Positions 2,156 through 59,784 of a stretch of 64,000 nt of DNA are shown one piece after another. This DNA comes from Aldrovandia affinis (taxonomy: Eukaryota > Chordata > Actinopteri > Notacanthiformes > Halosauridae): positions 2,751,001 to 2,815,000 of the forward strand of contig JAINUG010000018.1 in assembly GCA_029706075.1 (NCBI GenBank), written 5' to 3'. Positions within the stretch are counted from its first letter, which is position 1; each line of letters opens with the position of its first letter. The position numbers were made by a program, and so were the translations under genes. Under the pieces are notes generated by a model, which saw only the letters and a list, made by a program, of their open reading frames with translations, searched no databases and was not told the origin of the DNA.

Positions 2156-2355
2156 ATCCCTGAGCTAATTTACAATTGGTATGATAAGTAGGGTGTAGAC
2201 TTACAACCCAATTAATGTTCTGAAGTTTTGAGAATTTTATTTTTAACTTGGAATTTGTAGGGTAAAATGTCTAATTTTATATGTTTTAATTTCAGGCTGT
2301 AAGGCAACTGAAGGTGACATTTTTGAGAAGGGGTGTAGACTTTAAGAGCACTGTA

Positions 2356-3834
2356 TATTGTAAATAGCATACATATTTCCTGTTTATGACACACGCTCTA
2401 CGTTATTACCCATTTTCTTCAGTGGACATTGCATTACACCATTGGTTGAAACCCACATCAATTTGGGTAACCTGCATATAATAGTTATAACACTGTCCCA
2501 CAATCCCTCAATGCTGCCTGAATACTGAGACCAAACGTGCTGCCTGCACAGGAGTGCAGGTATAAGCTGAGTCACTGTTCTGTTTGCTGTGGTTTTTTTG
2601 TGCTTAAGCAATTGTAGCTTTGATGCCTCCAACAGAGCCCCACTTTCTGCATTCCAAAGCTTCTTCCTTCCTCAGTTTTGTTTGTTCATTTGCCTTTGAA
2701 AATATTTATTTCTGCTTGTCTGGCATTAGTAATATAACCTCATAGGTATATTCAACAAGCAATTGGGATGGAGAGCACTTTGACACTTTGAAGAAAGCAG
2801 CAGAAATGGCAGGTATTAAAGCAAAGAATTGTCCAAAAATGACTGGTTTTCCCCACAACTATTGATGATTAATAGCGAGACATCTTGCATCTGAGCAGCA
2901 CCACGTTCTGTAATAGTGATTGCTGGAGGGAATATTACCTAATATAATCATGCCTAGCCTGGGAGCAAGACTAAGTACTGGGCCAGGGTAATGCTCTTTT
3001 TTTCCTCTCAGTGAAACCCACTTTAAACAACAATATTCACTAAATATTCACAAAAAAAGTGGATTCAGATTTTTGGGGCGGGCAAGGGAGAGACCTTAAT
3101 TATTCTTTCAAGCCCCTCTAGTCCTTGCTAGCTTGTTAGCGGTGTGGCTAAGAATCAGGCTAAAATGGGCCACCTTTAAAAATATCCAACTGTTGTCATC
3201 CATCCAATTCCGATGTACGTTTATTCAACTTTAACAATGATCTAATTATGTTCAATTCAATTGCCTAAATTTCATTAATGTGAAAGATTCAAGGCCTGAA
3301 ACTCGAAGGCCTGAAAAAAAGAAGCACGACTGAATGTGAAGAAATGTTTGCTACTTACTTGCTAGCTACCTTAGGTCTCCCCGTATACAATGTTTGCCAT
3401 AGCAATAAATCTCCTTCATTGTGGAAATGCAACAAAGCACCAGAAAGCAACAATCTTTGATGGAAAACATAGGTACAAAGATGTAATTTGTTCTCTATGA
3501 ACAAACCCGCTACGGGACGTTCTTCGACTGCTGAACAAGATCAATAATTAAATCCGGCAATGTTGCGGAATCTGTGGGAAAGGGGCTTATGAGCATCAGT
3601 TTAGCATTAACAGGTATGAGCTGGCAAACCCAGAGGCCATTCTGATCTATCCATCATTATTATAATTGAACCAATTTTCCAGTTAAGGTAGTGTTTTTCA
3701 TCATTCCCATATAGGTCTCCTATATGAACAAATTCAGTGTAGAGTCTGTTCCCACATGACATGATCATTCCGGATATATTAGTCAATGCAGGATGTATTT
3801 ATTTTTTATGCAAACTTTTCAGTTTTCTAATGAT
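2356..3834. other. No gene seen; AT-rich sequence
   Basis: No ORF with recognisable similarity, no splice-flanked exon candidate and no clear repeat ends were found. Poly-A and poly-T runs and short CTAGC repeats occur. The sequence from about 3550 shares a motif with a downstream stretch, listed separately. Confidence 0.5.
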
Positions 3835-4659
3835 CTATGCCTTTTGTCTGATTATACCTCGTTCGCGTAGGATGTCTGTTATTTTGTCGTAGACCGTGGC
3901 ATCTCTGACACAGAGCTGTGGGTTAATTTTGTGGTCTGCATAGATAGACAAAAGTTCCCTTGTCTTGGATTCGGTCCAACTTCCAGACATGTTCATTAGC
4001 TAAAGCAAAGACGCTGCTAACTACCATTAGGAGTTACAATGGATTTTTATGCTGAGGACACTGAACCCCCTGGCCATATATTTAACACATTTTATGACGT
4101 TTCAAGAGTAAACTGACAAAGGTTACATTTCTTAACTATGCACATAGAAGACAAAACTAGACAAAATTACTGGCAACGTTAAATATAACCCAGCTATCAA
4201 TCAGCTAGCTAGCAAATGTTCACTATTTTGCAATTATTTGGCAATGTGATTAGTTAATACAATGATCCTATACCATATAGCATTTGCATAATGTAATCAG
4301 ATTTGTATAGATAGATGGATGTGAAATGTTAGGAAAATAGCCTCCATAGTCAGTAGCTAACTGGATGTGAAGTTTGCGATTTAAATTGTTAAAATAATAG
4401 TTTAAATGTTTGGTTTGATCATTTAACTAGCTAGCTAGCTAGAACGCAATGTAAAACCATCATACGTAAGAACGTTGTAACTTTTTGCGTGCTTTATCCG
4501 GGAATGTTGCTGCTTTGTTCCCACTAGAGCAGTGGCGGAAGATTTACGTAAATCGTACTAGGTCCCCGAGCCGGAAAATTTCTGCTGTTCCACAAATGAC
4601 GCCAACACACAAAATTACCTGAACATTTACAGGTTAAGGTGCATGTGGGAAAGGGGCTT
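3553..4659. repeat. Dispersed direct-repeat motifs around a Myb/SANT ORF
   Basis: GTGGGAAAGGGGCTT occurs at about 3579 and again, in the same orientation, at about 4645. TCCGGCAATGTTGC near 3555 resembles TCCGGGAATGTTGC near 4498. The copies look like ends or subterminal parts of one repeat family and lie on either side of the Myb/SANT ORF at 3835-3990. Direct rather than inverted orientation argues against simple terminal inverted repeats of one element. Confidence 0.4.
3835..3990 (-). CDS. Short Myb/SANT-like DNA-binding ORF, probably from a Harbinger-type element
   Basis: The ORF has an ATG at 3990, a stop at 3835-3837 and 51 residues, beginning MSGSWTESKTRELLSIYAD and continuing with DATVYDKITDILRERG. 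The Trp after MSGS, followed by acidic and basic residues and LLSIYA, is the start of a Myb/SANT-like (MSANTD-type) helix bundle. Such proteins are the DNA-binding partners encoded beside PIF/Harbinger transposases and are also found as domesticated genes. The third helix seems cut short by the stop, so this is probably a first-exon fragment or a relic. No DDE transposase was found nearby. Confidence 0.6.
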   Translation of the reverse strand: MSGSWTESKTRELLSIYADHKINPQLCVRDATVYDKITDILRERGIIRQKA

Positions 4660-5051
4660 TAGTGTGGCTCCTCATCAAATTATCATCAGTGTGGTTGAGC
4701 AGGGCCATACAATGCAGAAACTCACTGCTCAGAGAGGTTAATGAGTTTTCATCTCAGTGAAGACCTTGTTAACTTGTGTGCCAAACATTTTATTGATTTT
4801 AACTTCTTTTTTTACATTACATGACACTTTTAAACAACTATATTATCACCTCCCTTCCTTTCCTGTGCCATTTCTATTCTGTGACAATGGCATATAGCCA
4901 AAACATCAGGATGTGGTTAATAGCTGGTGGAAATGCTTTGAAATTAAATAAATAAATGCTTCAGTGCATGGGTGCAGCACACAAATGTTTCCCATGGATA
5001 TACTGTACCTCTTGTTATAAACCCCTGACATAAGGTAGAGGTCAGTCTAAC
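4660..5051. other. No gene seen
   Basis: A gene-free stretch of about 390 bases. It holds no recognisable coding sequence or repeat terminus. Confidence 0.5.
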
Positions 5052-5215
5052 CTGGGGCCTCATTTATAAAACGTACTTACGCACAGATTTGATCTTAGAA
5101 CGTGCGTACGCTCAAATCCACACCAAAGTTCAGATTTATAAAAACGGTCTTTGACGTGGAAAAGTACTCAGCTCCACGTCAGGTTTCAACTTGGCGTACG
5201 CACGTTTCCTTGTGG

Positions 5216-5590
5216 CAATGTTGGAGTACTGCAGGTATTCGCGGTCTCGTCTCTTCTCTGTCCTGACCCCTCGCTGGTGGAACTACCTTCCGCAATCGGT
5301 CAGGACCGCGGAATCACTTGCGATCTTCCGCAAGAGACTCAAAACCCACCTTTTCAGACTCCACTACCACTGAATTCTGTACATCTAGCTAATTGTTATC
5401 ACCACTGCCTACTTGCTCAACACTATATACCCCTGCTTACTCCATAAAAAAAATAATTTGATCTCTTGCGCGTACTATGATTGTTTCTACCATGTATTAA
5501 TGTACATATTGTAAGTCGCTCTGGATAAGAGCGTCTGCTAAATGCTTAAAATGTAAATGTAAAGTAAAATGTATTCAGAAATCTAACAGC
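5216..5590 (+). mobile_element. 5'-truncated L2-type LINE, 3' end only
   Basis: The frame at 5191-5373 reads RWWNYLPQSVRTAESLAIF then RKRLKTHLF, the conserved C-terminal tail of the ORF2 protein of L2/CR1-like LINEs. A short 3' UTR follows with GTCGCTCTGGATAAGAGCG at about 5515, then an AAATGTAAATGT tail. The same tail occurs in fish SINEs mobilised by these LINEs (compare 22486 and 36775). The fragment starts right after a Harbinger subterminal repeat, so it inserted into that element. Confidence 0.7.
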
Positions 5591-5622
5591 GGCAACATGT
5601 TGTCTGCTGCCTAATTGTTTCC

Positions 5623-5693
5623 TCATTATTATTATTATTATTATTAGTAGTAGTAGTAGTAGTAGTAGCCTAGTAGTAGTAGTAGTATTACCA
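5623..5693. repeat. Compound trinucleotide microsatellite (ATT)n(AGT)n
   Basis: About eight ATT units are followed by about ten AGT units with one interruption. It lies inside the Harbinger element, between the LINE tail and the Myb-like gene relic. Confidence 0.9.
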
Positions 5694-5826
5694 GATTGAA
5701 CACATTGCTTAGGCTATACGTAATGGTTTGCACAATAAATGTATTAATAAATTAAAACAACATAAGCTAGGCTCCTTGTGGAAAACAAAACAAAAACACA
5801 CATTGGTTTTTCCAAAACTACCCATA

Positions 5827-6231
5827 TTAGCATAATTGACACATCCTTGAAATGTATTTAATACATATTATAGTTCCACGCATGTAAAACATTTCGGTCA
5901 ATCTGTAGGCTATAAAATGTCCAATAATGCAGTGGTTTTCAAGAGGAAGAATGGCAGCATTGTCACTTCTTGAAGATATCGCCAACCGCGCAATAAGAAG
6001 GGAACGAGTTATTAGAGATTTTGACCTCAGTTTTAAATCAGACCACTTTTTCTTTACGTCCTTCAGGGACCTTTGCTGCCCCCGCACCTCGTTCACAGCC
6101 TGGGCTACAGACTAACATGCCACGTACTGGTAAAGCTACTGGAAAGGCTCCCAAACAGCGTCCCTGCACTTATCTGCACCTCCGCCAACAGGACCTCGAT
6201 TTCGGCCTCGCTAAAATTATTTTTCTTGCAC
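5827..6231 (-). pseudogene. Harbinger Myb-like protein, broken
   Basis: Two pieces on the minus strand belong to one domain. The first, from about 6231, reads KKNNFSEAEIEVLLAEVQ and ends at a stop near 6112. The second, within 5827-6096, reads VRGQQRSLKDVKKKWSDLK. The FSEAEIEVLL helix and the KKWSDLK motif are the first and third helices of the Myb/SANT-like domain found in Harbinger accessory proteins (NAIF1-like). In the family this protein carries the transposase to the nucleus and to the termini. A frameshift and stops separate the pieces. Confidence 0.65.
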
Positions 6232-6472
6232 CTTTATATGCTAATGATATTAATTAGGGGGCGTTTACAAGGCGGAGATCTAAAACCATTCACCTGCGCA
6301 CAATTTCAAGATCATTTGCGATTTATAGATTTCACATCTGGGGGACTGGCGTACGCACGTTTTTTTGTGCGTACGTTCAGTTTCTCTGAATCACACTTAC
6401 GCACATTTCAGAAATGATCTTAGATGAAATATAGGATGGTTTCTACGCAACTTTTTATAAATGAGGCCCCTG

Positions 6473-7226
6473 GTGTGTGTAGAATGATGAGAATCCAAAA
6501 CCTGCGCAGGGATGCTATAGCACGTGCCCCAAAATAAAACAGACAAAGTGTGTGTGTGTGGGATATGTATAACCCTAATCCTAACACTCTCCAGCATTGA
6601 CTGCTCTCCAAAATCAAGCTGTGTTCTTTGATGAAAATGCTTTTATTTGAGGTAAAATGCCAAATACACAGAATGCTGTATAACTGGGCTGTTATTGGTA
6701 TTGGGACTGATAACAAACTTACGATTTTCTATAAGAAACAACATTTCAAATGATTTTGGCTGTGCACTCCTTTAATAATTATAATCTAACACAATGTTTT
6801 CAAATGATCAATAAATACATCTTGAGATGTACAGGTACAAGAGTATACAAAGTGTTTTAGGACAGCTTTTGCTAATCTTAGGCATTAGGCATTAGTGTTG
6901 GCAGGTCTGAAGTCCATAGAAGTGCTTTGATAGATCACTTTAGTCAGTGAGTACAAGATGAAAACCCAAACCATATTCTGCTGAATTATATGTTAATGAC
7001 TAGAGAAGGGTCAGGAAAACCTTCAGCACTAAAGCCCTCTAGGAGCAGCTTTAAGCATTAAGGCAGACAATTAAACATTCAAAACTGAAATTACTTTGGA
7101 CATACTCCTTCCTCTTAATCACCTAATTATATACACACTACATGTAGACCTCAAAAAGCGTATATTGTCTGTATATTGTTTCTATTGATATATGTATTGT
7201 ATTTTATGTTGTATATATTGTATCTT
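6473..7226. other. Gene-free stretch, possibly downstream flank or 3' UTR of the minus-strand gene
   Basis: No ORF of interest. A GT run lies at 6550-6562 and a short ATTAGGC duplication near 6883. TTTATT occurs on the plus strand at 6640 and 7227, which gives AATAAA on the minus strand downstream of the acidic exon. Confidence 0.4.
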
Positions 7227-49480: not shown

Positions 49481-49811
49481 AATGGGAGAAAAATCCCTCA
49501 CTCTTTTCCTCAAATCTGGCAATTTATCTGTGAGGAAAGAGGAGAAAAAATGGCTCTGTCCATATTCCTAGTGTCCCTAAACGGCTCCAAGTGCCACACC
49601 ATTCACAAGCCTGATGTAAGGGTGCCATATTCATTATGTCTCTTAGCTAATACTATGAGAAGGTGGGGAAGCCCTCCTCAAATTCAAGGACAGTCACTTG
49701 AAATTAGAAATGCAAGTATACAGCCTAGACATTGCACCTGGTGTTTCCACATCCACACTAAGAAATCGATGGGATTACTGGGAGTTAATTGTGATATTTG
49801 ACATCCATATA

Positions 49812-50525
49812 CACTATATGGCCAAAAGTCAGTGGACACCTGACCATCGCACCTATATGAGCTTGTTGGACATCCCATTCTAAAACCTTGGGCATTAATA
49901 TGGAGTTGGACCCCCCTTTGCGGCTACGACAGCTGCCACTCTTCTGGGAAGGCTTTCCACAAGATTTTGGAGTGTGTCTGTGGGAATTTGTGCCCATTCA
50001 GCCAAAATAGCATCTGTGAGGTCAGGCACTGATGTTGGACGAGAAGGCCTGGCTCGCAATCGGCATTCTAATTCCTCCCAAAGGTGTTCAATGGGGTTGA
50101 GGTCAGGGCTCTGTGCAGGCCAATTGAGTTCCTCCACACCAAACTCATCTAACCATGTCTTTATGGACTTCGCTTTGTGCACAGGGGCACAGTCATGCTG
50201 GAACAGCAAAGGGCCTTCCCCAAACTGTTGCCACAAAGTTGGAAGCACCCAATTGGCTAAGATGTCTTCATATCCTGTAGCATTAAAAATACCCTTCACT
50301 GGAACTAAGGGGCCTATCCCAAACCCTGAGAAACAGCCCCAGACCATTATCCCTCCTCCACCAAACTTTACAGTAGGCATTATGCATTCCGGAAGGTAGC
50401 ATTCTCCTGGCATCCGCCAAACCCAAATTCGTCCATCAGACTGCCAGATAGTGACGCGTGATTCATCACTCCAAAGAACATGTTTCCACTGCTCCAGAGT
50501 CCAGTTGCGGCGTGCTTTTCCACTC
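49812..50525 (-). mobile_element. Tc1/mariner element, 5' part missing
   Basis: The left terminus CACTATATGGCCAAAAGTCA is a familiar fish Tc1 end, next to TA at 49810-49811. The transposase runs on the minus strand. The match stops at about 50525, where an unrelated repeat starts, so the other end was lost at that junction. Confidence 0.85.
49895..50525 (-). pseudogene. Tc1 transposase C-terminal two thirds, open
   Basis: The frame below 50525 begins with [20 protein letters not shown] and [11 protein letters not shown] (first Asp). From 50413 it continues [20 protein letters not shown], the second Asp ([13 protein letters not shown]) and [14 protein letters not shown] (Glu), ending AAKGGPTPY with a stop at 49895. 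No stop or shift is visible in the preserved part. The DNA-binding N-terminus is absent. Confidence 0.8.
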
Positions 50526-50640
50526 TGATTTAGACAATATTGGAGTGGTTTTGGGGGTTATTGAGGATGCTGAATCCATTTCAAAATGTCTGTTTAAACC
50601 AGAAGTAGCCATATTTCAACTCCCGGTGGGCTGATTTTTA
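50526..50640 (+). repeat. Left inverted repeat of the PIN/CXC unit
   Basis: It starts GATTTAGACAATATTGGAGT and includes TTATTGAGGATGCTGAATCC, AAACCAGAAGTAGCCATATT and GGTGGGCTGATTT. It matches the complement of 57790-57930 in the same order, with an estimated four fifths or more identity and one about 25-base gap. Confidence 0.8.
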
Positions 50641-50904
50641 TGGATTTTGAGTCGATTTTGAGGTTATTTATATGCTTAATACATTGGACCTGCATTTCAG
50701 AATCAAGAGGGCTCAATGTCATTGGTGTGAATGTTGAAACGTAATATTTCTTCAAATTTCTTCAGTTCTGCTCGCGTTTTTTTGCTGCGCAACATTGTGT
50801 CATTGACCTGTGTCATTGCCGCTGTGGTTACTGCTGTGGGCGGAATAACGGCCGGATGGAAAGACGGACGAAACACAGCTTTTTATATATGGATTATCGT
50901 CTCA

Positions 50905-51383
50905 ATGGAGCTCTCTGACCTCTTTGACTACAAGCTCGACCCGGTCCCTGCATCCATCATCAATGAGTATGGATGCCTCAGAAAGGGTAACAAGTCTATG
51001 ATTGTCCAGCGCCTTGGAATCCTTGTCCCCAATCCCCACCCACCAGACGTTGTACTCGTTGATGCATCGCAGCTCATCTACCACGTGGTGTGGCCAACAT
51101 CAGGCACCGTGGCTGACCTCGCAGCCAGCATGGGGCGCCGGCTTAATTGCTACATCACCCAAACATTTATCATCTTTGACCGGTATGAGCAAGTCTCTGC
51201 CAAAGACCATGAGAAGCAGAGAAGAGCCGGGGAGAGCTCAACAGAGTACCAACTCTCTCTGACAACCCCTCTACCTAGCCGCGACAACCCCTCTACCTAC
51301 CTACCTACCTAGTGATGAAGAACAAGACAAACAAGCGGAGGCTGGGCGAGCTCCTGTGCACACACAGCATAGGAGATCACAAC
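50905..51383 (+). pseudogene. PIN-like N-terminal half of an unrecognised multi-domain gene
   Basis: The frame 50731-51312 opens late in the family (first good start MELSDLFDYKLDPVPASIIN at 50905). It carries PDVVLVDASQLIYHVVWP, an Asp-led strand typical of PIN-like nuclease folds, then FIIFDRYEQVSAKDHEKQRR and YQLSLTTPLPSRD. An insertion of about 26 bases, built of a duplicated CCCCTCTACCT and TACC repeats, shifts the frame. It resumes as VMKNKTNKRRLGELLCTHSI and is cut by the LINE. From memory, similar proteins are multi-copy and unnamed in fish and some invertebrates. A nuclease role is inference. Confidence 0.5.
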
Positions 51384-51578
51384 TAGCACTAACTTTGTTT
51401 GCTAAGCTAGTTGCATAGCTGTTGCTATAGTATAGACGCAGCTGGCGTTGCGTGTTAGCTAGCTATCTAATATTAGTAGTAGTTCGCCTAGCAGGCTAAA
51501 ACGTTGATATACGACATCCAAGCTAACGCTAGCTACCAGCTATCCTGCTTTATTGTGTGGCTTATAGTTACAAAAGAG

Positions 51579-52571
51579 ATGTCGGAAGAGGCAGATTGTG
51601 ACAACTGCCTTCGCCTTGTAATCAGAAGGAGTACCTTGGAAAAGACAGTTACCGAGTTTATTCGGGGAAAAGCTGACATTGGAGACGAGGACCTTGACGA
51701 CACGCTTCCTCTGCTCCCTTTTCATGATGGCTCCTTTACAACCTGGGAGAAGCAAGGTGCTAAGCCAAAGAAATCATCCACCCCATTTTATACCGAGTTG
51801 TGGAAGAAATCAAATAATCATAGATCCCGCAAGTGCCTTTTCCCCTCCGCCAGAAGGCCTCTGCCAGTGGAACAGTCCAACAGGTACAGTGTCTTGAGCC
51901 TGGATGATTTTCCACCGCTACCTGAGCACGTAGCCCAGCATGCAGCCTCAGGAATTCCCGCTGTGACAGTCGCCTCTGGCTCTACCAGCACTGATTCTTC
52001 TGTCAGTGCTTCCACTGAAACGGACATCGTGCCTGCTGCTCTTACCCCGGACGCTGACGCTGTGACTGCGGATATAGAGGCTGTGTCTACTACCTCTATT
52101 CCTGCTGCCGCCTCTGCTGATGCCGCTGCTGATACTGGTGCCGCTGCTCCAGGCGCTGCTACAATGTCTGCTGCATCTGAACTCACAAGCATTAAGGCCG
52201 AGCTGCAGTTTTTGGCACTTGAGATTAAGCAGCTACTGGAGCGTCAGATGTCTTTAAATTATAGAGTGGCGGCTATCTCTAAGCCCCAGGCCTCCCCTCG
52301 CCTCAAGCCTGGTATAGTAGCCTTCACCCCTGCACCCAGGAGGGCTTGTATGGGCTTTAAATGCTGCACGGGTGTCCTGCCCTTCACCTCTTCACAGGTG
52401 TCATCCTCAAACGCCCCGTCGCCTGATGTCCTGATTGGACCTGTTGCTCCGGCTCTTTCAGCTGCTTCGGTGGATCTGATCTCCAGGGACCCCTCACCTC
52501 GTGCCTTGCCGCTCACTGTCGCCCCTGCTGCCTCTGCCCTCTGTTTCCCTCATCATCCCTCCCCCTACTGA
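51579..52571 (+). CDS. LINE ORF1, N-terminal part
   Basis: The start MSEEADCDNCLRLVIRRSTL at 51579 precedes an acidic stretch, RKCLF and RYSVLSLDDFPPLPEH-like linker, a long Ala/Thr/Ser-rich disordered region (residues about 150-220), and a short coiled coil with ELTSIKAELQFLALEIKQLL. Coiled coil followed by an esterase is the ORF1 layout of L2/CR1-type LINEs, whose product binds the RNA. The frame runs out at 52571. The esterase continues in the next frame (from about 52501), so a one-base shift lies in this overlap. Confidence 0.7.
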   Translation: MSEEADCDNCLRLVIRRSTLEKTVTEFIRGKADIGDEDLDDTLPLLPFHDGSFTTWEKQGAKPKKSSTPFYTELWKKSNNHRSRKCLFPSARRPLPVEQSNRYSVLSLDDFPPLPEHVAQHAASGIPAVTVASGSTSTDSSVSASTETDIVPAALTPDADAVTADIEAVSTTSIPAAASADAAADTGAAAPGAATMSAASELTSIKAELQFLALEIKQLLERQMSLNYRVAAISKPQASPRLKPGIVAFTPAPRRACMGFKCCTGVLPFTSSQVSSSNAPSPDVLIGPVAPALSAASVDLISRDPSPRALPLTVAPAASALCFPHHPSPY

Positions 52572-53064
52572 CCCCACTACTACCACCCTGGTCATCGGCA
52601 GCTCGATGGTGCGTGGCATCTCCCTCCCCGGGGACTCAAAGACCCTCTGTTTCCCTGGTGCTAGGGTGTTGGACTTGACTCGGATGCTCCCCATCATCCT
52701 TGAAAAGCACCCCAACCTTCAGTCCATCGTACTCCACATTGGCACAAATGACGTCATGCACCGTGAGTCTGAAGTCCTAAAAGATAGCCTCCTTAAATTG
52801 CTTACTTCTCTTCAGGATTCAGGGCCTAGGGTTATTGTCTCTGGGCCTCTCCCTACCCATGGGAGAGGCGACGAAAGGTGGTCCAGGCTCCGTGCTTTGC
52901 ACACCTGGCTTCTAAATCTCTGCACTGCCACTGATTTAATCTATGTGAACAACTTTGAGCCATTTAAATTGAGACCCTCCCTGTTAAAGAAGGACGGCCT
53001 CCACCCAAATAGTATGGGTACTCAGCTGCTATCTGCCAACATTAGAAAATCTCTTGGTTCATGA
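52501..53064 (+). CDS. LINE ORF1, SGNH esterase domain
   Basis: TLVIGSSMVRGISLPGDSKT gives block I with the nucleophile Ser, IVLHIGTNDVMHRESEV gives the Gly-x-Asn-Asp block III, and KKDGLHPNSMGTQLL gives the catalytic Asp-x-x-His block V. All four SGNH residues are therefore present. Such esterases are known in ORF1 of CR1/L2-like LINEs and are thought to help membrane or lipid interactions. The domain ends with KSLGS and a TGA at 53064, 40 bases before the first ATG of ORF2, in the same frame. The domain itself has no visible break. Confidence 0.85.
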   Translation: MPCRSLSPLLPLPSVSLIIPPPTDPTTTTLVIGSSMVRGISLPGDSKTLCFPGARVLDLTRMLPIILEKHPNLQSIVLHIGTNDVMHRESEVLKDSLLKLLTSLQDSGPRVIVSGPLPTHGRGDERWSRLRALHTWLLNLCTATDLIYVNNFEPFKLRPSLLKKDGLHPNSMGTQLLSANIRKSLGS

Positions 53065-53103
53065 CATAAGGGCATTAGTTCTACTTATGCTAGCCCTGTA
53101 GCT

Positions 53104-56048
53104 GTGCTGACATCTGAATACCCCACTAATTCAGTTATTTCTGAGCTCTCCCCACCTTGTGCATTTAATCCTGTTGAGTTTAAATCCAGAAAGGGGTTGG
53201 GATTAATTCACTGGAATATTAGAAGTCTTCTTGCACCTCAGAAACTTGACCATGTGAATTTATTAATCTCCGATACTGATCCAGACATTTTAGCTCTTTC
53301 TGAAACTTGGTTAAAAAACAGCATCAATGATTCCGAGATTGCTATAACTAACTATAATGTTTTTAGAATGGACAGAGCTGGAAGAGGTGGAGGGGTGGTA
53401 ATTTATGTTAAATCTTGTTTTTCTGTTACTGTCTTGTGTGCTGTTTCCATGCCAAAATGCTTTGAGTTTCTTGCACTTAGGATAATTATTGGAAGCAATG
53501 ACTCTATCATTGTTGCTGGGATCTATCGACCTCCATCTGCCAATGTCAGTTCCATAGACCACCTTGCTGAGCTTTTATCCAACTACAAAAACTCTGAAAT
53601 AATCGCTTTTGGGGATATGAATGTTGATTGGCTGAGTGCCTCTTCTGCTTATCTAAAAGAGGTCTCCTTTAGCCTTAATCTTTCTCAGTTAGTCAAAGAC
53701 CCCACTAGACCTAATTTGAAGAACCCATCTAAATCTACTCTGATTGACCTGATTTTCTCCAACAAAAGCGATAAAATCTCCGCAGCCGGTGTTTTTGATC
53801 TAGGTATTAGTGACCATTGTCCCATTGCCTGTATCAGGGACTGTCATATGAAAAGAACTTCATCACGAATTATTTTGAGAAGAAATGTAAGAAATTTCAA
53901 TGATCAGGCTTTCCTGAATGATCTCTTTAATAGTGACATTCATAGTACATCTGGAATCCCAGATCTTGAACTATCTTAAAAAATTTACTGACACATTCCT
54001 TTCAATTGTAGATAAACATGCTCCATTCAAAAAGTTCAGAGTAAAAAATAGATCTAGTCCATGGTTTTCTACTGATTTGTCAGCCTTTTTTTTAGAACGT
54101 AATAAAGCTTGGTCTCTCGCCAAACGCACTAAGGAGCCCTCCAACTGGGCTTCTTTTAGAGAAATTCGTAATAAATGTACTGCGCTTGTCCGGAAGGCTA
54201 AGACTGATTATTATGTTAACTTGGTCTCTAGCTCCCTTTCAGATCCTAGAAAGTTCTGGAAAGCCGTGAAACGTAATAATTCTGTTGCCTCCATACCTAC
54301 TCAGGTCAAGTTTGTTGATTGTTTACTGCAAGACCAAAGTGACATCTGCTCTGCCTTTAATAGACACTTTGCTGCTGCTGGCCATCTTTTTGAACTTGAA
54401 GCTTGCCGCTCTTCCCAGGGTGAAAATAATCAGCCTCTGGTTAATCAAAATTCTATAGGCCTATCTCTTTCAAATTCTTCTCAATTTACTTTTGGTCCTG
54501 TCCCACTAAATACAGTCTTGGAATCTCTTCACGCAATTGATCCTAAGAAATCTATTGGTGAAGATAGATTGGAGCCTTTCTTTCTCTGTCTCTCCGCTCC
54601 TCTGATTTCTAGTCAGATAACCCATATTTTTAATCTATCGTTATTGACAGGTGTTATTCCTGCTGTCTGGAAAACGGCTCATGTCGTCCCCCTGCATAAG
54701 GGTGGTGACAGATGTGACCCAAATAACTATAGACCAATTTCTAAATTGTCTTGCTTAGCTAAAATGTTGGAATCTTTAGTTAATCAACAGCTTAAGGAAT
54801 TCCTCTCGGCTAACTCTGTTTTAAATCCACTTCAATCAGGGTTCAGGCCTCAGCACAGCACTGTTTCTGCTGTCACTTTGGTTTTAAATGATATTGTCAA
54901 TGCCTTGGACGGGAAAAACACTGTGCAGCCATCCTTGTAGATCTCTCCAAGGCATTTGACACTGTAGATCATCCCTTGCTTTTAGACATACTCACTAAGA
55001 TTGGTTTTAGCTCTGGTGCCTTTTCCTGGTTCCAGAACTATCTCTCTGATCGGCAACAGTCGGTGACCTTGGGATCCATTAGTTCAGAGTTCCTGCCGAT
55101 TACTAAGGGTGTTCCTCAAGGTTCAATTTTGGGTCCTGTTCTTTTCACAATCTATATTAACAATATTTTCTCATCTATATCAAACTGTCATATCCATCTG
55201 TACGCGGATGATACAATATTGTACAGTATTGCTGATTCTGCTGATTTAGCTGTAAAAAATGTGCAATTATCTTTTGATACTCTCCAAACTGCATTCACTG
55301 ATCTTAAACTTGTTCTTAATGCTCAGAAAACGAAGTTTATGTTGTTCTCCAGGGCTAGAACTAATAGTAGCTCAGACTTCCGTATTTTTACTTATCATGG
55401 ATCTCTCATTGAGAGAGTCTCAGTCTATAAATATCTCGGTATTTGGATAGATGAGAAACTCACTTTTAGGACCCACATAGATAAGCTTGTCAATAAACTT
55501 AGGCAAAAATTGGTTTTCTGTACAGAAATAAATCTAGTTTTCCTTTGCTTTGTAGAAAAAGAGTTGTTGAAGCTGTTTTCATGTCTGTATTAGAGTATGG
55601 CGATGTGATCTATAGGCAAGCCTCTGCTTCCACTCTTAAGTCTCTGGATGCTGTTTACCATTCTGCCATCAGGTTTATTACTGGAGATCCCTATAGGACT
55701 CATCATTGTATTCTGTATGCTAATGTTGGATGGTCTTCCCTCTCTCAGAGACGGGACAAGCATATGTATATTTTCATCTATAAGGCCCTTCTAGGCAAAC
55801 TTCCATCTTATATTACCTCAATGCTTGTCCTGTCCTCCGGCCATTATCACACTCGGTCCTGTGACTGGCTTTCATTAGACATCCCAACAGTTCGGACTGA
55901 GCTGGGTAAATCTGCGTTTTCATTTTATGCTTCTGATGCCTGGAACTCTCTCCAAATGTCTTTTAAACTGGATTCTTTAGTTCCCCTTAGTCATTTTAAA
56001 GTATTACTTCTAAATCATTTTACTTCTGTATGTACTTGTTTTATCTGA
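53104..56048 (+). pseudogene. LINE ORF2: AP endonuclease and reverse transcriptase, three frameshifts
   Basis: Endonuclease: GLGLIHWNIRSLLAPQKLD, ILALSETWLKNSINDSEI, GGGVVIYVKS, IYRPPSAN, AFGDMNVDW and ISDHCPIACI (53190-53850). A shift near 53950 leads to the linker and RT fingers (VPLHKGGDRCDPNNYRPISK, FRPQHSTVSA). After a shift near 54925, VDLSKAFDTVDHP (RT motif A), GVPQGSILGPVLFTIYINNI and HLYADDTILYS (YADD active site) follow. A shift near 55530 leads to the C-terminal part, ending SDAWNSLQMSFKLDSLVPLS at 56048. Endonuclease and RT active-site residues are all visible. It belongs to the L2/Rex1 group within CR1-like LINEs; the exact clade is uncertain. Confidence 0.85.
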
Positions 56049-56214
56049 ATTTTATGTTGTATCTTTTATCTTATATTTATTATAGTATGTGTTCTTTTAT
56101 TTTTTTATATAGTAATTGTTTCTGGAATGATTTTTGTACTCGACATCACTGTAAATGAGGTTCGCACCTCAGCTGATCTTCGAGGCTAAATAAAGGTTAA
56201 ATGAAAAATGAAAT

Positions 56215-57191
56215 GACATCAAGATGGTCAGCAGAGCAGACAGTATTGTCACTCATGAGGAGGCTGACGTCTTCTTCATCTCATACATGTTGGATGCAGC
56301 CAGGCGCGGAGCTACAACTGTCCACATTCTCAGCGACGACACTGATGTGTTTGTGCTCATGGTCTGTTTGTGCTCATGGTCTGTGCTGGAAGGTGGGTAT
56401 CACATGTCACCTGCAGATGGAGAGATGGGATGACACTGTTCTCAACATCAATTCGACAGTAGAGAATCGTGGTGAGCAGTGTTGCTCCATCCTGGCTATG
56501 CACGCTCTCTCCGGGTGTGACACCACCTCCTATCCCGCCGGGAAAGGGAAGGTGTCCACGCTCAAGGCCATGAGAGTAGTACCTGGTGACCTGCTTCACT
56601 TCATCGGAGAGGAGGGAGCTACTGATTTGCAGATCACAGAGGCAGTGAGGGGTTTCTTTCTGGCTCTGCACAACCAGAGGAAGTCGGCAACTCTGAACAT
56701 CGCCAGATATGACATCTACCGAAAGCGCAAAACCCCCCCAGCACTGAAGACACTGCCTCCTACAGAGCGCAACGCGCACCTCCATGGATGGACAACGTGT
56801 CCATCTACAAGTGATGCTTTGGAAAGCAGCAGACCGCCCTGATCCACCAGCTGTGGACATCACCAAGTTTGGATGGGACAAGAACATCATGCCCGTCCTG
56901 GATGCAAGCCCTGTTGCTCCTCCTGCCCTGTTGGACATTATTAGCTGTAGCTGCAAAGCTGGGTTAAAGCCATGTACAATAGCAAAGTGCAGCTGCGCAG
57001 CTGCAAGCCTGGCCTGTACAAGCTACTGCTTCTGCAAAGGCTATGATAGTACATGTTGCAACCCGCTCACACACTCACAGCAAGAAGTGCAAGATGACAA
57101 GAATGTAGAGTCTGGAGAAGAAGATGAAGACAGAGCAGACGATGAGGATGAGGTTGATGATGAGGATATGGTTTATAACAGTAAAGAGTAG
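56215..57191 (+). pseudogene. C-terminal half of the PIN-like gene with a CXC (tesmin/TSO1-like) cluster
   Basis: The frame resumes with IVTHEEADVFFISYMLDAAR and VHILSDDTDVFVLMV. A 17-bp tandem duplication (TTTGTGCTCATGGTCTG) near 56349 shifts it. The next frame reads CCSILAMHALSGCDTTSYPA, GKVSTLKAM and ARYDIYRKRKTPPALKTL. After a second shift near 56790, VMLWKAADRPDPPAVDITKF, CSCKAGLKPCTIAKCSCAAA and CTSYCFCKGYD follow, a CxC-type zinc cluster as in tesmin/TSO1 proteins. The tail (57090-57191) is very acidic. HEEAD and DDTDVFVL carry clustered acidic residues that could be catalytic. The role is unknown. Confidence 0.55.
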
Positions 57192-57789
57192 TAGAAGTGC
57201 AAGGCGCTCTTGCTTGATGAAAGTTTTCCAGTTGTAACGCATTGTGTAACTAGTGCACATATAGTTTTCTGCACTAATCATTTTGGATATACTTGTGTTT
57301 TAAAACTTGTTCCAGGATTCATGTGTTCTGTTAAACATTTTTAAGTGGTGCAGCCGCTTCTATATGTGACATGTGTGTCCGTCCGTGTGTGTGTGTGTCC
57401 GTTCATAGCATGAGATTTAGACCAATCAGGAGTAGCCCATGCGTCATGTGCACCGCTTACTTCACGACCTGGGTGTGATTTTTTACTTTGTATTATACTC
57501 CCTTCTCTCTTTTTTATAGGATATTATTTAGCCATAGTCATATTATTCTAGTTTGGTATAGTACTTGTGTTACCTTTGTTACCTCCAATACCCAATTGTG
57601 AGTCACCTAAGAGTATAATGGTCTATGAATTAAAATGTACATGTTCTGCATCGTTTGGATAATTCTGTTCATAAATATCCTACAATTTATAACCAAGTTG
57701 AAGCTATTTCATTTATTTCAAATACATAAGTTATCTGTCCAATCCAATCAATTCAGCGTCCTCTAAAACTTCTAAATTGACTGAAACTT
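57192..57789. other. 3' non-coding part of the PIN/CXC unit
   Basis: No ORF. A GTGTGTCCGTCCGTGTGTGTG run lies at about 57373, and AT-rich DNA leads into the right inverted repeat. Confidence 0.5.
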
Positions 57790-57930
57790 TATCAAAATCA
57801 GCCCACTGGGAATTGAAATATGGCCACTTCTGGTTTAAATGGCAATTTAGAATTTTGAAAATGTCAGAAATGGATTCAGCATCCTCAATAACAACCCAAA
57901 ACCACACCAACATTGTCCAAATCGGCCAAG
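57790..57930 (-). repeat. Right inverted repeat of the PIN/CXC unit
   Basis: The complement starts GATTTGGACAATGTTGGTGT and includes TTATTGAGGATGCTGAATCC and AAACCAGAAGTGGCCATATT, matching 50526-50640. On the outer side it continues with GGACAATATTTCAGGAACTG, which the left copy lacks. The left end may therefore have been trimmed at its junction with the Tc1. Confidence 0.75.
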
Positions 57931-58203
57931 CAGTTCCTGAAATATTGTCCATATAGGTGATTATGCCAGTTCATGCTGATTATGCTAATTAGGCAAATTG
58001 CCCAACATATGCAAGTTAGCATCTGGCAGTTTCTAAATGCTGGGGACCCATACTGTACATTTCTAACATAAAACTGTGGGGTACTCAACATTTCCAGGCT
58101 CACATTGCTGGCAAGTAGACTAGGATGGGAGCATTGTCCTCCTGGAAGAGACCAGTCCCATCAGGACAGAAATAGTGATCACTCACAATGGCTTTGTATT
58201 TAT

Positions 58204-59784
58204 CAGTGATGAAAGTGGTCAGGCTGAAAAAAAGCAGAACATTTGAATGATGTGTTGGCGGGGTTACCATGGGGTTTTACAGACGAAAATGAATAAATGT
58301 ATTAATAAATCCAAGAAGCAGAAGCTGGAAGTATAAAAATTAGGTTTTATCAAAATAAAGTCTTCCTTTATTTATTTTAATAAGTCTTACTTTATTAATT
58401 GAGGTTACTTTAATAAATAGACCTACTTTGTGTGCCATTACACTGCTTATTTAATTATTCTGGCATGCCCCATGTTGCGTAGCGGCAAGGGCGGGGAAAA
58501 TCGCTTAGAGGGAGTTCCGGCGGGAGATATGACACTGAATCAGCTGATAACATTGCTTGGTAAGGATAGCAGTTATAAGTAAGGATAAGTTGCACTAAGG
58601 TGTACAAATTTTTTTTTTATAAGGTAGGACAACATAAGAAACGTTAAATGACTGTCTCTATGCAACCATCATTCAAGCCAAACTTGCCAAACACAGTAAC
58701 TTTTCTATTTGGATTTAGCCAAGCTGTCTCTATTGTTTACCATGCTGTTGGTAGGCTACACGTGGTACCTTGTTTTCTTGGGGCACAAATCGCCTGTTCA
58801 GGACGGCACAAGCGGCACATGCCGTTTTGTGTGCCGGATTTAAATGGAGTGGACACCACGCCGAGCGGCACAAACCAGCATTGTGCCTGTTGAGTTTTGG
58901 AATGGATCCAATGATAAACTAGAGAGATAGGCGCAAGGCATAATGTTTCATGATGACTGACTGCTAGTAAACCATGCTAGTGCTAGCCAGCTAAAATTTT
59001 AGCAACAAAATTTAATCGTGTATCGTTTAAGTGAGTTTGATAAAGGCTAAATATTAATTGTGGCTCTAGCTGGGTAACCACAAGCCTTCAGTTCTTTATT
59101 CTATTTGTTATCCTACCTCTTGGTTTTTCAAGCAGTCATCCACTGCAATCGCTGGTCAGGCTGTGGATATGCCATCCCTGCTTGTTGAGCTAATGTTAGA
59201 CAGTGTAACATTAGCATCAGTGACTGGTGAAAAAGCCATGGACAAAGTGTAATTCATACCGCAAATTTTGTCATTGTGCTTTTTGCTACAGATGTGATCT
59301 TCCAAAGCCTTAAGTCCTCTGGAGCCATAACTGACAATATCCAAACAATACATGCAGAGTATTTTGCCAGGAATATCAACTTTTTTAGAACATTCACCCA
59401 CTGTCACTTCGGTAGTGTTCCCATTGACTGAAACTGAGGTTTTTTTGTCCAACCAGTCCCAACGGAATCTGTTTTTTACGCCTCCTTCAATTTAATTTAG
59501 CCATGACCTATCATTTTTCTCTATCACTTTTGCCATTCTTCCTTTGCGGTCATTTCACCGTTTCTAGAGGCTTTAGCTAGCTAGCATGCACATGACTTAC
59601 AGTGACAGTGACTATGCTTGTACTGCTGTCAACCTGATTGGTCTATCATTAAGTGTGACGATTGACAAGATGAAAACTAATGAGGCTTATCGTGGGTCAA
59701 GACCCCCCCCCAAAAAAAAAAAAATCAGATCTACACAAACCTCATGGTTGATGCTTTCTGATCTGTGGAACTCTTTCATCACTG
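58204..59784 (-). mobile_element. hAT-like element with a zinc-finger ORF
   Basis: The ends CAGTGATGAAAGTGG (58204) and CTTTCATCACTG (to 59784) are inverted. The flanks share ATTTAT, a probable decayed 8-bp target duplication. The CAGTG-type termini suggest hAT. At 1.58 kb it is shorter than autonomous hATs, and only a finger-encoding ORF is seen. Confidence 0.6.
59156..59536 (-). pseudogene. Zinc-finger protein ORF of the hAT-like element
   Basis: From an ATG at 59536 the minus strand reads MAKVIEKNDRSWLN, meets one TAA, and continues in the same frame: KNRFRWDWLDKKTSVSVNG, VDIPGKILCMYCLDIVSYGS and GLKALEDHICSKKHNDKICG. C-x2-C with H-x5-H is a BED/U1-like zinc finger of the kind found at the N-terminus of hAT transposases. 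It ends at 59156 with no catalytic region. I cannot assign it to a named hAT family. Confidence 0.55.

Follow-up and report, generated by a model that had tools for sequence, protein, structure and literature searches.

Long inverted repeats around a broken XPG/FEN-like nuclease gene in the fish Aldrovandia affinis: a decayed, probably Academ-type transposon

The locus and the ends of the element

A stretch of 64,000 nucleotides from the halosaurid fish Aldrovandia affinis (contig JAINUG010000018.1 of assembly GCA_029706075.1, positions 2,751,001 to 2,815,000 of the forward strand), called the window here, carries a mobile element that consists of two halves of one broken gene, a long interspersed nuclear element (LINE) lodged between them, and terminal inverted repeats (TIRs) outside. 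An earlier note, made from the letters of this stretch, had pointed to inverted repeats on either side of a single gene for a PIN-like protein with a CXC zinc cluster. This description holds. The repeat arms at 50527-50665 and 57767-57923 can be aligned over 158 bp with 77% identity (E 6e-29), and are also seen as three ungapped pieces. The motifs of the protein are present as well: VDAS and FDRY on 50731-51312, ALSGCDT on 56201-56842, and the CXC cluster on 56748-57191, with HEEAD (56254-56268) and DDTDVFVL (56335-56358) read from the sequence in a frame differing from that of GCDT.

Where does the element end? The earlier note had placed its ends at 50526 and 57930. The genome searched throughout is the assembly containing the window (1.22 Gb, 2,576 contigs), and in what follows L numbers denote regions fetched from it and C numbers its contigs. 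A search of this genome with the left repeat gave 18 matches. When the window is aligned with 13 fetched regions (L009-L021), homology on the right-hand side runs past 57930 and stops at 58117-58123 in ten of them (L009, L011, L012, L013, L015-L018, L020 and L021). In L010 it already stops at 58028. L014, with its stop at 58104, and L019, with its stop at 58094, are left-type ends that diverge beyond these points. The common terminus reads ...GGCAA(G/A)TAGACTA and is followed by unrelated sequence; therefore, the end of the element is 5'-TAGTCTA. L018 and the L020/L021 pair lack the final five bases at their right ends. The true right terminus of the window copy is 58122, not 57930. Its left terminus is missing: the copy is cut off at a Tc1 remnant, and the left TIRs of L014 and L019 reach 209 and 192 bp further out than that of the window copy.

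The interior can be followed in alignment with the copy on contig C491 (region L009). Positions 50742-50906 of the window correspond to 6340-6186 of L009, and positions 50904-51381 to 4583-4141, and the C491 copy is 1.6 kb longer between the two. The sequence lost at about 50905 is matched by the transposase-like region in L090, a long relative described below. In the LINE, an upstream open reading frame (ORF) with a GDSL/SGNH-type esterase domain precedes the endonuclease and the reverse transcriptase. The two matches that flank the LINE overlap by nine bases in L009, possibly as a target duplication. A stretch 97% identical to this LINE is also held by L016 (6609-8206). With its internal deletion and its LINE, the window copy is a dead and non-autonomous derivative (Table 1).

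Table 1. Features of the window copy and of its immediate surroundings
Feature	Position	Strand	Basis
Truncated Tc1-like element, outside the transposon, cutting its left end	49809..50518	-	95.5% over 711 bp to the Tc1 of L065; Pfam DDE_3, E 7.4e-11
Left TIR and subterminal region, outer ~190-210 bp absent	50527..50905	+	Matched by L010, L011, L013, L014
Internal deletion point, ~1.6 kb of the transposase-like part lost relative to the C491 copy	50905		L009 alignment
Nuclease, N-terminal half, XPG/FEN-like (VDAS, FDRY)	50905..51381	+	88% DNA identity to L009; two alignments
LINE inserted in the nuclease gene	51382..56209	+	Pfam Lipase_GDSL_2, Exo_endo_phos, RVT_1; L009 homology up to 51381 and again from 56210
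Nuclease, C-terminal half (HEEAD, DDTD, GCDT), and CXC cluster, in more than one frame	56210..57191	+	91% to L009
Right TIR, complete, outer end 5'-TAGTCTACTTGCC	57767..58122	-	Homology end in 10 of 13 regions
Right flank outside the element, by eye part of another Tc1-like transposase, different from that on the left	58123..58210	-	Reverse-strand translation ...DGTGLFQEDNAPI

The window copy thus lies between fragments of two different Tc1 elements, and the C491 copy is inserted within a Tc1 (L009:1803-2298). Tc1 is abundant, with 1,012 candidates in the genome, the best 40 of which were scored, and no target preference for Tc1 is claimed.

Other copies, target duplications and empty sites

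The TIR of the window copy is found at 15 places (21 end matches), some of which are probably assembly duplicates. When the genome was searched with the C-terminal part of the protein, 44 matches were obtained (best 150 of 280 candidates scored). Four of these are close, at 89-100% identity, and all four close gene copies adjoin a repeat of the window family. Repeat and gene lie within the same element in the window, in C491 and in C2322, and the gene copy at C890:2134463 lies ~7.3 kb from the repeat on the same strand. There are also TIRs without the gene, for instance the short copy in L020/L021 and the copies in L019 and L015-L017. Near-identical copies that share their flanks lie on different contigs, or on different ends of contigs, in L020 and L021 (C2262, C319) and likewise in L015, L016 and L017 (C1331, C1035); probably these are duplicates or haplotypes within the assembly. 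One copy of the window family is preserved at both ends: L013 (C1799) extends from 2221 to 6715, with 4,495 bp between the termini and TTA on both sides, and is itself decayed. With constant ends, and with repeat and gene found together at other loci, the element is mobile and TIR-bearing as the earlier note had supposed.

More ends can be compared in the family of L031, a diverged family with the same protein. It has 36 end matches, from which 20 end regions (13 left and 7 right) were fetched. The left ends read TAGTCTAG in 12 of 13 and TAGTCGAG in the other one, and the right ends read TAGTCTAG in 7 of 7; in L031 itself, the left end is TAGTCTAG and the right end TTGTCTAG, and TGGTCTAG is read in L036. 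Eight two-ended copies, namely seven fetched pairs and L031, were examined for a target duplication. A perfect duplication of 3 bp is seen in seven of the eight, one of 2 bp in two, and one of 4 bp in none. If left flanks are paired with right flanks of other copies as a control, 3-bp matches appear in 3 of 56 pairs. Together with TTA/TTA of L013, a constant target duplication, by which the earlier note had proposed to check the element, is found in these relatives and is 3 bp long.

Empty sites, which the note had proposed to look for in related genomes, were found within the same genome. The flanks of the C1535 copy, joined minus one TTT, align without gaps to uninterrupted repeat copies in L018 (94%, 90 bp) and L032 (90%, 92 bp); some further, weaker matches are gapped, within or just beside the left simple-repeat part. 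In the window family, four of the four other copies fetched of the Tc1 that houses the C491 copy read CAATG/GCTTTC there, uninterrupted, where the slash marks the insertion site, and the other junction of the C491 copy is deleted. From these Tc1 sites, TAGTCTA belongs to the element and the target had no TA. A TA duplication, i.e., a TA target with GTC ends, had been considered from single ends, and is ruled out by the Tc1 empty sites together with the 3-bp duplications.

How widely does this arrangement extend among distant relatives of the gene? Sixteen distant loci (L026-L041), each only 3.3 kb long, were compared at the DNA level. The gene lies inside long inverted repeats in L030 (157 bp, 98.7%), L031 (233 bp, 94.4%) and L037 (358 bp, 92.2%), and L065 is a longer element of the L037 type, with an ORF of 665 amino acids flanked by arms of 215 and 113 bp. 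Adjoining this L037-type element there is an ORF (L065:1216-1803) that, by eye, resembles an hAT transposon protein with a BED-type zinc finger. L036 has its right end in common with L031 and contains long inverted repeats internally. A rescan of 11 of the 13 other loci (including L036, without L038 and L039) gave no long flanking inverted pair: L026 and L028 have no inverted pair at all, and the remaining rescanned loci have short, local or internal pairs only within their 3.3 kb. The diverged lineage of L026 gave 100 matches in the genome (best 88 of 803 candidates scored). L026 (G000:C1792:248281-249738) and its relatives are high-copy, and many of them have in-frame stop codons. The long-TIR arrangement holds for some families and is not demonstrated for the abundant L026 lineage.

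The encoded nuclease and the region upstream of it

What does the gene encode? The family was not reached by a single-sequence search of PDB or by Pfam scans. A 12-row profile of element proteins, run against 177,635 distinct PDB sequences, gave five matches up to E 10, and all of them are exonuclease 1. The aligned stretches, vfD...s.k..eR.RR and lsGCD..S..G.G, come in order. The acidic motifs VDA/IDG, EEAD and DTD presumably correspond to the pattern of XPG/FEN nucleases, as judged by eye. As far as can be told from the sequences, the protein is most likely a PIN-like nuclease of the XPG/FEN type with a C-terminal CXC. The PIN-like call of the earlier note is then most likely right in kind, marginal as the exonuclease 1 matches are, and what does not go along with it is the Pfam XPG model, which is silent at these loci. 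Therefore, the name is limited here to 'XPG/FEN-like'. As to the CXC part, the Pfam model TCR is above its cut-off in the relatives L063:2950-3363 (E 1.2e-5) and L090 (E 3.2e-5). When viral contigs were searched for relatives with a single-protein query, one stretch fitted a pattern and none was confirmed.

The longer relatives that the earlier note had thought of do exist: L013, L009 and L090 have a transposase-like region upstream of the nuclease. The ORFs of L013 contain, in order, ...WGDNFDLVVF..., ...ITFDRQLYVIACLIKW... and ...WRAEREGDWLLQQHCLEEMLPYFF..., and then comes the nuclease. In L090 (C2100), an ORF of 412 amino acids with LVWDNIDF... and one of 934 amino acids together encompass the transposase-like region, the nuclease and the CXC, and residues 10-298 of the 934-amino-acid ORF match L013 with 26% identity (E 3e-16). 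L063/L064 are arranged as L090. A search for the termini of L090 in the 6.2 kb of fetched sequence gave neither TAGTCTAG more often than by chance nor a long pair of inverted repeats. Motifs of the forms WDN/GDN, FDQ/FDR and E.DW lie upstream of the nuclease in L013, L063/L064 and L090, and by eye they may represent a DDE triad, in which case the upstream region would be expected to work by DDE chemistry. DUF6589 was tried as a model of the transposase and rejected, with one weak match and none in other pieces or genome-wide, where the controls were silent too. With a transposase-like region upstream in the longer relatives, the PIN-like part, which had been proposed as a possible mobilising enzyme, is probably an accessory nuclease and not the sole mobilising enzyme.

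Interpretation and comparison with known systems

To what kind of transposon, then, does the window copy belong? The AcademX lineage of the Academ superfamily was reportedly described by Kapitonov and Jurka in 2010 and by Kojima in 2020. The nuclease of AcademX is of the XPG type. Since the present elements combine 3-bp duplications, a nuclease that appears to be of this type and a transposase-like region, Academ(X) is the best filing for them. We put the probability at about 0.82 that the window copy is a decayed, non-autonomous cut-and-paste transposon of the Academ(X) type, that is, of a known superfamily and not of a new class. In the cited excerpts, Academ is counted among the DDD/E transposase superfamilies (PMC9587614), and target duplications are given as 3 or 4 bp for AcademX and 9 or 10 bp for AcademH, a difference linked to the encoded helicase and nuclease (PMC10045372). 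Academ is listed, again in the excerpts seen, for zebrafish, medaka and stickleback and as absent from tetraodon (PMC4746887), and a mean length of 5,565 bp is given for Academ of bivalves (PMC10294476). With a transposase, a nuclease and duplications of 3 or 4 bp already described there for AcademX (PMC10045372, PMC9587614), the suggestion of a new DNA transposon class finds no support.

How might such an element move? In an autonomous ancestor, one gene would encode the transposase, then the XPG/FEN-type nuclease, and then the C-terminal CXC, and long TIRs ending with 5'-TAGTCTA would enclose it. The transposase would recognise the TIRs and join the excised element to staggered target cuts 3 bp apart, which would leave the 3-bp duplications. 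Relatives of the nuclease cut flap or branched DNA, and the nuclease itself might trim or cleave the second strand, the one not cut by the DDE domain, at excision or insertion. Such a division of labour would be analogous to the help that TnsA gives to TnsB. The CXC would bind DNA. What the sequences show directly are the TIRs, the termini, the 3-bp duplications, an empty site and the order in which the coding regions follow one another, whereas DDE chemistry, nuclease activity, the proposed division of labour and the name Academ are inferred.

Several points weigh against filing the element under Academ(X). The name comes only from published descriptions and general background, and the excerpt on AcademX says just 'nuclease', not XPG. 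No Pfam transposase model matches the upstream region of the scanned relatives; the sole Pfam signal in the transposase-like region is a sub-threshold DUF6589 match (E 0.0044) in one piece of L009, and a genome-wide search for DUF6589 was empty, though its controls gave no signal either. The five exonuclease 1 matches are variants of one protein, with a best E of 0.01 as a whole and 0.51 for the best single stretch, and a second profile that found the identical five (best E 0.039) shares rows with the first. The Pfam XPG model PF00867 matches five places in the genome, none of them among the listed loci of this gene, and Pfam reports no CXC in the window piece, L030, L031 or L065. As to the ends, the right terminus of L013 is TATTCTA, one substitution away from TAGTCTA. 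No duplication can be seen in the window copy, with its left end gone, and in its family L013 alone allows a test for one. In the L031 family, C2122 has no perfect duplication (TTT/CTT), and C435 and C2422, which also seem two-ended, were left out of the set of eight. With the ends as read, the three bases on the two sides differ in L037 (TTT/TAA) and in L030 (CTT/TTT).

Could these elements constitute a superfamily of their own, a transposase-XPG-CXC fusion that ends with TAGTCTA, makes 3-bp duplications and is Academ-like just superficially? We regard this as improbable, and give equally little weight to the variant in which a DDE-like transposase, an XPG/FEN nuclease and the CXC would form one polypeptide whose nuclease cuts one of the two strands at either end. 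The upstream region is indeed unrecognised by the Pfam transposase models, no direct sequence link to Academ has been made, and literature searches on XPG-linked (also XPG-like, RAD2 and FEN1) transposons showed, among the papers listed, none on an XPG-bearing transposon, which is not proof of absence in print. Against a separate superfamily, however, a nuclease and duplications of 3 or 4 bp are on record for AcademX (PMC10045372) and Academ is recorded in teleosts (PMC4746887), as far as the excerpts go, and genes as abundant as the 100 matches seen here would be expected to be held by Repbase from other fish. Less likely still is that the PIN-like/CXC protein itself mobilises a compact new element without a DDE transposase. 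The TIR-bearing L030 and L037, which are mainly nuclease-CXC sequence with no obvious transposase, would suit this idea. However, L013, L009 and L090 have transposase-like sequence upstream in the same element or gene, and therefore the short elements look like internal-deletion derivatives; moreover, no XPG-type nuclease is known to join strands. That an ordinary host gene came to lie between unrelated repeats by chance or as a passenger is next to impossible in spite of the TIRs without the gene in L020/L021, L019 and L015-L017, as the same protein lies inside different TIRs in several diverged families (L030, L031, L037/L065 and the window family), and the recurrent association, with four of four close gene copies adjoining the repeat, and the constant ends contradict it.

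The puzzling gene is thus explained as part of a transposon family for which exact ends, the target duplication and an empty site can be given. This suggests regarding similar CXC/GCDT proteins of fish genomes as encoded by transposons. What role would a flap-type nuclease have in cut-and-paste transposition? This is the biological question raised by the family, and L065 and L090 are the better preserved relatives in which it can be addressed.

Compared with known systems, Tc1/mariner is met here merely as flanking or target sequence of some copies, and its TA duplication is excluded, since the C491 target had no TA and TAGTCTA was brought by the element. In the motifs IDG, EEAD and DTD, we take the element nuclease, by eye, to resemble the exonuclease 1/FEN1/XPG family. 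The stretches FD...S.K..R.RR and LSGCD..S...G.G align in order with members of this family (PDB 3qea, 3qe9, 5uzv). Unlike them, the element nuclease, very remote in sequence (E 0.01), has the transposase-like region before it and the CXC cluster after it. The TTAA duplicated by Kolobok elements is at odds with the 3-bp duplications of variable sequence seen here. KolobokE and KolobokP, with a DDE transposase followed by an accessory nuclease, do have the plan proposed for the present elements, but their nucleases, in the cited excerpt, are of the PD-(D/E)XK or His-Me finger type, folds other than the one supposed here (PMC9587614). The window copy differs from AcademX in being truncated and non-autonomous, and the likeness is one of description. 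What the description of AcademX and the present elements have in common is TIRs and target duplications of 3 bp and, as the coding regions are read here, a transposase-type element with a putative nuclease, in a superfamily that, according to the excerpts seen, is present in teleosts.

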